From: Clostridia bacterium
GTDB lineage: Bacteria; Bacillota; Clostridia; Christensenellales; CAG-138
Assembly: GCA_017619735.1 (NCBI GenBank)
Contig: JAFZRT010000040.1
Location: forward strand, 1-64,000
DNA length: 64,000 nucleotides
Direction: 5' to 3'
Below, piece by piece: positions 1 to 2,692 of the stretch. Both the position numbers and the translations under genes were made by a program. Every line of letters starts with the position of its first letter. Position 1 is the stretch's first letter. The notes beneath the pieces are model-generated. The model was given only the letters and a program-made list of their open reading frames with translations, had not been told where the DNA came from and ran no database searches.

Positions 1-655
1 GCTGTGCCTGGGAGAGAGAGGGGGTATTCTGCGAATAGTCCATCGCGTCAAGAAACTGCCTCTGCTCGTCATGGGTGAGATATGACAGCTCCACGGCGGG
101 GCTGAACGCGATCTCCTTGTTTTCCACCTTTTCCTGCACTTCGGGCAAAAGCTCGGTGAGGCGGATATAGCGGCGCACTTGGTCTCTGCTTGTCCCTGCT
201 TCTTCTGCGACTTTTTCGACAGATAACTTCTGTGCAATTCGCGTAGAAGTTGATTTACCCTCTAAATCCACGCGTTTCCCCTGATGTTTCAGCGCTTCCA
301 GCTTCATTTTGTACGCCTGCGCCCGTTCCATGGGGCTGATCGTTTCACGTTGCAGGTTGCTGTCCACCATAAGGATCACCGCCTCGTCGTCGGTAAGATT
401 GCGGACGATTGCCGGGATGGTTTTCAGCCCTGCAAGGTCTGCGGCGTAAAGCCGCCTGTGACCGGCTACCATTTCATATCCGCCCTCCGGGTCGGGACGG
501 ATGATGGCGGGGTTGAGAATCCCCACCTGCATGATGCTGTCTATCGTCTGCTGCATCAGCTCATCGTCCAGCACCTTGAATGGGTGGTTTCTGAATGGGT
601 GGATCTCAGACATCGGTATCTGCTGTACCTGTTCCCGGGGTTCCTGTTTTGGCAC
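1..655 (-). CDS. ParB/Spo0J-family partition protein (3' end off window)
   Basis: ParB-type DNA-binding/CTPase protein that would act in segregation or regulation of the mobile element. I translated it directly: a GTG start at 655 follows an AGGAGG ribosome-binding site, and the reading frame is open to the window edge (about 218 residues). The N-terminus has the ParB domain signature, with IHPFRNHPF near residue 18, then VAGHRRLYAA (the GHRR box of the CTP-binding ParB fold) and NLQRETISPMERA. A helix-turn-helix (KVAEEAGTSRDQVRRYIRL) follows. No parA lies between it and repA, which is unusual; it may lie downstream outside the window. The family assignment is firm, the exact role inferred. 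Confidence 0.85.
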   Translation of the reverse strand, partial: MPKQEPREQVQQIPMSEIHPFRNHPFKVLDDELMQQTIDSIMQVGILNPAIIRPDPEGGYEMVAGHRRLYAADLAGLKTIPAIVRNLTDDEAVILMVDSNLQRETISPMERAQAYKMKLEALKHQGKRVDLEGKSTSTRIAQKLSVEKVAEEAGTSRDQVRRYIRLTELLPEVQEKVENKEIAFSPAVELSYLTHDEQRQFLDAMDYSQNTPSLSQAQ

Positions 656-676
656 TGTTATCACCTCCTCGAAATG

Positions 677-703: not shown

Positions 704-1603
704 TTAGATGAATCCCTCCGACATATCGTGACTGACGAGACTTCGGTAGTAGTTCCCGATGGTCAGAGGGGCGTTATACAGGGTGGCTAAGAGATACTGG
801 CGCATATTGCGGATGCGGGTGGTGTTGTCCTTCAGACCGTCCATGACAAAGCGGATATGCTCACTGTCCAGCTTCAGGAACTGGCTCTTTACGACCTCCG
901 CGGGCTTGTCATCTCCGGAGATACGGACGGTGCTTCTGGTTGTACAGACCGTATCGACCATGAGCTCCAGTATTTCCGTGAGAATATCCCGGTCAAGCGG
1001 ATAGTCCTGCAAGAGAATCCCATACGAGATATTCTCCGAAATGATCTCTCTGTATCGGTCTCTCTGATTCACATCGCTTCTTTTCGATTCCCGTCCGTGA
1101 TCCTCTCTGAACGAAGTGAAGGGAAAAGAATCAGTATCACTACGTTCAGTATTATTATTCTCAGTATTATTAGATCGTGATTTTAACGGTTCTTGATCCG
1201 TGATTTTCACTTCTCCAGAATCGTGATTTTCACGATTCAAGAAACGTGATTCCGATGGGGTAACGAAGTTCTTTACATAGATGAGATTGGGCTTGCCGAG
1301 GCCCTGCCGTTTTCGCTCGATAAGACCGCACTTGCTTTCCAGCTCATACAGGAGCTTTCCGGCTTTCTGATCGGCACAGCCCATGGCCTCCATGATGTCC
1401 TCAATGGTAAAGATGATATACACCCGGTTTTCTTTATCCTGCCAGCCGTTCTTTGCCGAAAGGCTCATGCGGTCAAGCAGAAGTCCGTAGAGCACTTTGG
1501 CTTCTGCGGAGATAGCCTTAAACCGTTCCTCTGTGAACAGCACCTTGGGGATGCGATAGAAAGAGAACTGTTCAGACTCCGCGCCATAGAAGTAATCATA
1601 CAT
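704..1603 (-). CDS. repA: Replication initiator protein A (RepA_N family)
   Basis: Initiator for replication of the mobile element. Residues about 1-110 match the RepA_N domain: FYRIPKVLFTEERF, AKVLYGLLLDRMSLS, then IIFTIEDIMEAM (winged-helix region) and GLIERKRQGLGKPNLIYV. A polar, low-complexity linker (about 118-165, rich in N, T, S, E) leads to a C-terminal helical domain like that of ICE-encoded RepA proteins. I chose the ATG at 1603 because homologues start near MYDYFYG; a GTG at 1615 would add four residues but sits only one base after AAGGAG. Its start overlaps the end of the cysteine-rich gene. The linker-coding DNA carries four iterons (1176-1251), as expected for RepA_N replicons whose origin lies inside rep. 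Confidence 0.85.
   Translation of the reverse strand: MYDYFYGAESEQFSFYRIPKVLFTEERFKAISAEAKVLYGLLLDRMSLSAKNGWQDKENRVYIIFTIEDIMEAMGCADQKAGKLLYELESKCGLIERKRQGLGKPNLIYVKNFVTPSESRFLNRENHDSGEVKITDQEPLKSRSNNTENNNTERSDTDSFPFTSFREDHGRESKRSDVNQRDRYREIISENISYGILLQDYPLDRDILTEILELMVDTVCTTRSTVRISGDDKPAEVVKSQFLKLDSEHIRFVMDGLKDNTTRIRNMRQYLLATLYNAPLTIGNYYRSLVSHDMSEGFI
1176..1251. repeat. Four iterons at exact 23-bp spacing inside repA
   Basis: The plus strand has CGTGATT at 1176, 1199, 1222 and 1245, each exactly 23 bp apart. The first three extend to CGTGATTTT, and copies 2 and 3 to CGTGATTTTCAC. Copy 3 is also part of a palindrome, GAATCGTGA/TCACGATTC. Because 23 is not a multiple of 3, the repeats fall in different reading frames of repA, so selection acts on DNA rather than protein. 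The position in the centre of a RepA_N gene matches the known location of oriV in this plasmid family. Confidence 0.75.
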
Positions 1604-1883
1604 CGGGACCGTCACGCTCCTTCAGCAATCCCACGGCGCGCATGACCTCCTTGGTACACCACCCGATACAGGGAGAATCGCGTCCGTAGGGACAATTCCT
1701 GCACTCCGAAGCAGGTGCGGTATTCTCTTTATCTTCATCGTCGCGGAACTGAAATGCGGCCCTTTGATCTATTGGACAGCAGCAGCCGTCAGGGTAGACG
1801 CAGCCTTGTTTCTTTCCTTTCCAGTACAGACAGTACCGGCAGTCATATATGTTGTAGTCCCACGACTTGCCATACGCTCTCAC
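1596..1883 (-). CDS. Small cysteine-rich protein of the mobile element
   Basis: 95-residue protein of unknown function, first gene of the repA-parB unit. The GTG at 1883 is preceded by AAGGAGG with 7-nt spacing; upstream in-frame codons lack such a site. It contains ten cysteines (residues 15, 18, 28, 34, 35, 36, 61, 64, 72, 76), with CRYC, CCC, CRNC and CIGWC motifs and no signal peptide or membrane segment. This suggests one or two zinc or Fe-S sites in a cytoplasmic protein (inference). Its 3' end overlaps the repA start. Similar small Cys-rich genes accompany repA in gut Firmicute ICEs, but I know no assigned function. Confidence 0.65.
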   Translation of the reverse strand: MRAYGKSWDYNIYDCRYCLYWKGKKQGCVYPDGCCCPIDQRAAFQFRDDEDKENTAPASECRNCPYGRDSPCIGWCTKEVMRAVGLLKERDGPDV

Positions 1884-1913
1884 GCTTACACCTCCTTCCG
1901 CCCGCGTCGGGGC

Positions 1914-1966
1914 AAAAAAAAGCGCGCCTGCCAACCCATGCGTCACTTTGGGTAACAGACGCGCTA
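1914..1966 (-). terminator. Leader terminator upstream of the Cys-rich/repA operon
   Basis: On the minus strand, AGCGCGTCTGTTACCC pairs with GGGTTGGCAGGCGCGCT (small internal mismatches) around a loop of about 12 nt, followed directly by eight T residues. It lies 30 nt before the first gene of the rep operon, in the transcribed leader direction, so it would act as an attenuator rather than an end-of-gene terminator. Rep genes of this type are often controlled by transcriptional attenuation with an antisense RNA; that mechanism here is inferred. Confidence 0.6.
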
Positions 1967-2099: not shown

Positions 2100-2164
2100 T
2101 TTTCCCCCATTTTTTAACTCAAAACCACCTCAAAAATGAGTTTTCCCCCATTTTTAACTCAAAA
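2100..2164. repeat. Two near-identical 24-25 bp direct repeats, about 41 bp apart
   Basis: TTTTCCCCCAT followed by a T-run and AACTCAAAA occurs at 2100-2124 and 2141-2164 (one T different). Each copy is preceded by CCTCAA. They lie in the AT-rich, otherwise gene-free 1947-2296 stretch, between the leader terminator and the rpsI terminator. They could be integrase arm-type sites, replication-control sites or transcription-factor sites near the element end. I see no coding potential in this gap. Confidence 0.55.
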
Positions 2165-2296: not shown

Positions 2297-2692
2297 TTAT
2301 CTCTTGCTGAACTGAGGTGCGCGACGAGCGGCTTTGAGGCCGTACTTCTTGCGCTCCTTCATGCGAGGATCGCGGGTAAGGAAACCGGCCTTCTTAAGCT
2401 GACCGCGGAGCTCCGGATCAACGTTCAGGAGCGCGCGGGAGATGCCGTGACGGATAGCACCGGCCTGACCGGTGAAGCCGCCGCCGTATACGTTAACGAT
2501 AACGTCGTACTTGCCGAGGGTGTCGGTAAGCTTCATGGGATCGCGGACGATCATCTTGAGGGTCTCATAACCGAAATACTCGTCGATGTCCCTCTTGTTG
2601 ATGGTGATGACGCCGGTGCCGGGAACGAGGCGGACCCTGGCAACGGACTTTTTACGCCTGCCTGTACCGAGATACTGAGTAACGTTTGCCAT
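2297..2692 (-). CDS. rpsI: 30S ribosomal protein S9
   Basis: Small-subunit ribosomal protein whose C-terminal tail reaches the P-site tRNA. 131 residues, normal for the family. Signature features are [14 protein letters not shown] near the N-terminus, [15 protein letters not shown] in the middle, and a basic C-terminus ending in QFSKR. It is second in the rplM-rpsI operon, 19 nt after rplM. Its 3' end marks the border with the mobile element; the final codons are intact, so any insertion left a functional gene end. Confidence 0.97.

Follow-up and report, generated by a model that had tools for sequence, protein, structure and literature searches.

A probable replication origin of phased 23-bp boxes within the repA gene of an rpsI-integrated element from Clostridia

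The closest described counterpart of the locus analyzed here is the replication origin of the Staphylococcus plasmid pSK41. This origin lies within the rep gene and is experimentally established: Rep binds four boxes located centrally in rep, and the protein linker encoded by the box region is dispensable (PMC5703833). DnaA boxes were not reported for the staphylococcal plasmids (PMC5703833). The iterons of RepA_N initiators are semi-palindromes that converge on an A-tract, with arms of 8-9 bp in pSK41 and pTZ2162 (PMC7145576). A related arrangement is found in pPR9, whose Rep is described as an HTH_36-type N-domain joined to the pSK41 C-domain and whose rep region supports replication (PMC5703833). 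The PLE replicon, a Vibrio cholerae satellite, is an integrating element with a RepA_N initiator and semi-palindromic A-tract iterons like those considered here, but its origin is non-coding and depends on a helper phage (PMC7145576). The RepA_N ICEs of the TnGBS1/2, Tn5252 and Tn1549 families are also integrated conjugative elements with a RepA_N gene; replication is involved in TnGBS maintenance before integration (PMC4701971), and the text read describes no in-rep origin for these families.

The window analyzed here is the whole 64,000-nt stretch (positions 1-64,000, forward strand) of contig JAFZRT010000040.1 in assembly GCA_017619735.1, from a Clostridia bacterium (GTDB lineage Bacteria; Bacillota; Clostridia; Christensenellales; CAG-138). 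A sequence-only reading of the window had proposed that four phased repeats inside a RepA_N initiator gene form a replication origin.

Results

repA encodes a RepA_N initiator with a DUF6017 C-terminal domain

The repA gene (704-1615, minus strand) encodes a protein of 303 residues. Its RepA_N domain (PF06970; residues 18-92, encoded by 1340-1564, minus strand) scored 103 bits against a Pfam cut-off of 30 (7.1e-30), which places the protein in the RepA_N initiator family. The N-domain model superimposes on the pSK41 and pTZ2162 RepA structures (4pql/5kbj) with Z = 11.5-13.6, and its winged-helix, DNA-binding fold agrees with the Rep-DNA complex 5kbj. The C-terminal part matches DUF6017 (3.5e-56; residues 163-301, encoded by 713-1129, minus strand), a domain shared with the HTH_36 initiators described below. 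The DUF6017 model has a pLDDT of 82 and gave no PDB match at E ≤ 0.001 and no VIA row at Z ≥ 5; a profile comparison with the pSK41 Rep C-domain was not significant. Linker residues 118-179 are predicted to be disordered (pLDDT about 30), and part of this linker is encoded by the 23-bp repeats.

The parB gene (2-664, minus strand; ParB_N 3e-21, HTH_ParB 2e-9) lies next to repA and is truncated by the contig start. On the other side, a conserved Cys-rich ORF of 116 residues (1596-1946, minus strand) with CxxC and CCC motifs lies upstream of repA and overlaps its start. No Pfam match was found for this ORF; similar ORFs occupy the same place in L063, L064 and L065, and counterparts occur in genomes G052, G030 and G046.

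A phased array resembles the pSK41 origin

The motif CGTGATT occurs on the plus strand at 1176, 1199, 1222 and 1245, and a sequence count confirmed the exact 23-bp steps first seen in the sequence-only reading. These are the only four copies on either strand of the 64 kb. The number of copies alone is not unusual, with 8 expected in the window; the regular spacing is. No other 7-mer in the 64 kb recurs exactly at least four times with a single fixed spacing in the range 10-40 bp, and a run of four never arose in codon shuffles of repA (0/2000).

The motif belongs to a longer semi-palindromic unit, of which it makes up one arm; on the coding strand the arms meet on an A-tract. All four 23-bp units are read on the minus strand: unit 1 (1231-1253, CGTGATT at 1245-1251) is without its left palindrome arm, units 2 (1208-1230, CGTGATT at 1222-1228) and 3 (1185-1207, CGTGATT at 1199-1205) follow, and unit 4 (1162-1184, CGTGATT at 1176-1182) merges into the first of a set of AT-rich repeats. 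Counted by palindrome centers, the array consists of three boxes and one half box. The best candidate RepA box is the perfect 21-bp inverted repeat GAATCGTGATTTTCACGATTC at 1218-1238, which has 9-bp arms and reads GAATCGTGA-AAA-TCACGATTC on the coding strand and GAATCGTGA-TTT-TCACGATTC on its complement; arm complementarity exceeds the between-gene null. Conserved DNA extends past the boxes through three AT-rich 15-bp repeats (TCTAATAATACTGAG, AATAATAATACTGAA and CGTAGTGATACTGAT; 1130-1174, minus strand), making the segment larger than first reported. These repeats are conserved in Clostridia and Staphylococcus and are the probable strand-opening part. The boxes thus lie centrally in rep, in the linker-coding stretch between RepA_N and DUF6017.

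In the pSK41 sequence, four boxes spaced 23 bp apart precede three AT-rich 15-bp repeats, and alignment with the window requires no gap. The same register and tail are found in pTZ2162 and pWBG753, where the palindromes lie on A- or T-tracts. In a DNA search the window segment matched about 107 Staphylococcus plasmids, at about 70% identity over about 122 bp, most of its length, in the best of those listed. The locus therefore shares with pSK41 four semi-palindromic boxes with an A-tract, exact 23-bp steps, a position in the linker of a RepA_N gene and an AT-rich tail. The arms differ, being GTGTC/GACAC in pSK41 and CGTGA/TCACG here, and the pSK41 C-domain is not detectably related to DUF6017. 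In addition, the present copy is integrated in a chromosome of a Clostridia host and has parB beside repA, whereas pSK41 has parM. pTZ2162 and pWBG753 also have other arms and are free staphylococcal plasmids. In pTZ2162 (L170) the RepA_N frame is interrupted just past the boxes, with no damage to the boxes or the tail. Strong support for the in-gene origin reading comes from the layout in the window, which is that of the experimentally defined pSK41 origin (PMC5703833), and from the favorable phase test in homologues described below.

No DnaA box with up to one mismatch was found in positions 1-2400 of the window. Exact DnaA boxes (TGTGGATAA) lie directly 5' of the arrays, between N-domain and array, in L005, L006 and L054, and near-consensus boxes were seen in L060/L092. 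Exact boxes number 5 in 109 genes compared to 1.05 expected and a shuffle maximum of 4, and those before the arrays of L005, L006 and L054 are taken as a lead only.

The element is probably integrated at the 3' end of rpsI

The element had been described as apparently integrated, a view now supported by a 50-bp duplication of the rpsI 3' end beside two tyrosine integrases. The chromosomal neighbor and integration target, rpsI, occupies 2297-2692 (minus strand), and in same-genus genomes without the element homology to the window starts at rpsI. The last 50 bp of the gene (2297-2346, attR) recur on contig C50 of the same genome (24083-24134) beside two Phage_integrase genes, and on its other flank the C50 copy has the genes found after rpsI in the empty relatives. 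A direct target repeat and an integrase are therefore present, and we infer that the two contigs join. The two tyrosine integrases stand in tandem at the distal end of the element (L171:14244-16879). The 19-bp motif TTTCCCCCATTTTTTAACT is found near both element ends (2101-2119 and 2141-2159, plus strand, and L171 14195) and may be an integrase arm site. Compared to the RepA_N ICEs, the element is distinguished by its position in rpsI, its tandem tyrosine integrases and its DUF6017 initiator.

Genome G022 contains a near-identical element with a RepA that is 97% identical, the same integrase pair at a second copy of the rpsI end, and PcfB-like and VirD4 genes after parB. In G052, both rpsI-end copies are on one contig and flank a 9.7-kb remnant with an intact repA. 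Searches of the bin that contains the window (92% complete) detected neither VirD4 nor VirB4 homologues; the contig start truncates the element. The term ICE is for this reason drawn from the relatives, with VirD4 in the G022 element and VirB4 and a relaxase in others. A search of viral contigs returned one relative.

These gene inventories bear on whether the array is a genuine but vestigial origin, a decayed and passively inherited remnant that never self-replicates in this host. We consider this unlikely, while giving it some weight. The missing VirD4 and VirB4 genes and the G052 remnant at the same site would fit such decay. Against it, repA, the boxes and the tail are all intact with silent change suppressed, and the near-identical G022 element keeps its PcfB-like and VirD4 genes and both integrases. 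Mobile elements are also often lost from bins.

Array type follows the initiator N-domain

In other plasmids, arrays bound by RepA often have a further role in copy-number control. The boxes could by this precedent be RepA sites for control only, acting in autoregulation, incompatibility or handcuffing while replication starts elsewhere on the element. This is improbable given that the array lies inside the coding region and not at the repA promoter, and that in class I homologues, as in pSK41 with its proven ori in this region (PMC5703833), it adjoins the conserved AT-rich block.

Most of the DUF6017 proteins found do not carry RepA_N, and those tested have an N-terminal HTH_36 domain. Arrays in the HTH_36 + DUF6017 initiators have a period of 15 in 27 of 28 non-redundant cases and 30 in one; a period of 23 never occurs. 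The 15-bp units (nnnGGAAAAnCCnnn) are GG-5-CC semi-palindromes with arms that match within a gene (0/1000 shuffles) and an AT-rich tail; as 15 is divisible by three, it is more difficult to dismiss a coding explanation for this class. pPR9 has a period of 15 and its multiple 45. The pPR9-type HTH_36 initiators resemble the present one in their in-gene array, AT-rich tail and modular swap of the N-domain along with the origin, and differ in having a 15-bp rather than a 23-bp period. The N-domain class thus appears to predict the box period across both C-domains, as expected if the N-domain reads the boxes. Arm sequence tracks the N-domain (Mantel r = 0.45, 19/5000; partial r = 0.62) and not the C-domain (-0.22).

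HTH_36 + DUF6017 arrays of Tn1549-type elements were seen in L093-L165 and others and in pMG2200 (L199:4905-6104), where the initiator adjoins Tn1549-type transfer genes. In one homologue, L053 (MT836145.1), the reading frame spans 392 codons and the array is expanded to about eight units of 23 bp. Proteins of about 130-140 residues with RepA_N alone and no C-domain occur in L030, L043, L049 and L177, the last adjoining a relaxase-like ORF.

The location of parB directly downstream of repA raises the possibility that the repeats serve this ParB as its centromere (parS) and are not RepA sites. The array also has TTTCAC/GTGAAA-like palindromic halves, which we take to resemble generic parS in part. 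A parS role is nevertheless very improbable: array type follows the Rep N-domain class and the arms covary with that domain, the annotated stretch of pMG2200 has the rep array and no parB nearby, and the same layout serves as Rep boxes in pSK41.

The array is conserved as DNA

As the four units occupy different reading frames, the sequence-only reading had argued that the DNA itself is conserved and that the 23-bp phase should persist in homologues as the linker diverges. Both expectations were borne out. Of 17 representative RepA_N homologues, 16 had a lag of 23 above the null from codon shuffling (p ≤ 0.002); L056 has a weak array (lag-23 p = 0.068). The right arms within one gene have a likeness of 0.81 compared to 0.59 when shuffled between genes (0/2000), despite their different frames. 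The phase therefore persists in divergent homologues and the arms change in concert.

Silent change is depleted over the same segment. Fourfold sites changed at 1 of 10 positions in the array and tail and at 44 of 94 in the flanks in the comparison with L088, and at 3 of 13 and 50 of 83, respectively, with L003. Very close pairs show depletion in the same direction that is not significant alone (p = 0.08-0.14). Synonymous codons in the AT-rich tail are skewed to ACT, AAT and GAT, and ACT encodes 46 of 53 Thr residues there compared to 52 of 240 in the rest of the same genes (p = 5e-19). Finally, the whole 129-bp box array and AT-rich tail is found without an open reading frame in the Subdoligranulum record OY725877.1 (220373-220501; L178:10012-10140).

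In this stand-alone copy two A-tracts are flipped to T-tracts. The only RepA_N match in OY725877.1, a short protein, lies at a distance of about 190 kb. The record (L052) is labeled a plasmid, and its DNA-methylase-like and transporter-like neighbors look chromosomal by eye.

The idea that a repetitive protein linker yields the DNA repeats by chance draws on the low complexity of the encoded linker (NNTENNNTERSDTD) and was rejected as scarcely credible, because the four units lie in shifted frames, silent sites are depleted of change, the arms change together across frames, and the DNA is kept in OY725877.1 where no frame is open.

Discussion

Positions 1130-1253 are very likely the vegetative replication origin of a mobile element and, as in RepA_N plasmids, lie within the linker-coding stretch of the element's initiator gene. 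Sequence comparison shows that the phased 23-bp boxes and three AT-rich repeats are conserved at the DNA level between Clostridia elements and Staphylococcus plasmids and are tied to the class and sequence of the N-domain.

A working model for initiation can be drawn by analogy with pSK41 and from general knowledge of origins, covering binding, array assembly, opening and replisome recruitment. RepA would bind the boxes through its RepA_N winged-helix domain, in keeping with the covariation of arms and N-domain. The constant 23-bp step corresponds to about 2.2 turns and would let RepA build an ordered array, and the AT-rich repeats beside the boxes would then open. Like the C-domain of pSK41 Rep, which binds DnaG, DUF6017 may recruit host replication factors, a step that stands as analogy only because DUF6017 has no detectable structural match or relation to the pSK41 C-domain. 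Once excised or transferred, the element in the rpsI 3' end would be maintained as a circle by this origin and ParB. Replication of the excised circle is plausible and is supported by the intact module, and the element is probably a latent plasmid.

The arrangement itself is already known, and what seems new is the host group, gut Clostridia, and the type of element. Also new is that initiators with the same C-domain and an HTH_36 N-domain, one of them on a Tn1549-type module, bear 15-bp arrays instead. A broader proposal, which we favor by a little, is that a large group of conjugative elements in Firmicutes, among them the Tn1549-type modules found on enterococcal plasmids, are hidden theta replicons with the origin inside the initiator gene. 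The N-domain class would set the period (23 bp for RepA_N, 15 bp for HTH_36) whatever the C-domain, the AT-rich 15-bp tail and the C-domain would be exchangeable, and some origin copies would survive as stand-alone DNA without a rep gene.

The present locus would widen the range of the pSK41-type intragenic origin beyond staphylococcal plasmids to elements integrated in the chromosomes of gut Clostridia, and the DNA of the two is still recognizably alike, at about 70%. Whether conjugative transposons with a RepA_N gene can self-replicate is an old question that is now directly testable on a 130-bp segment. If the class of N-domain sets the box period as a rule, origins could be recognized from initiator gene sequences in many elements, including Tn1549-type modules.
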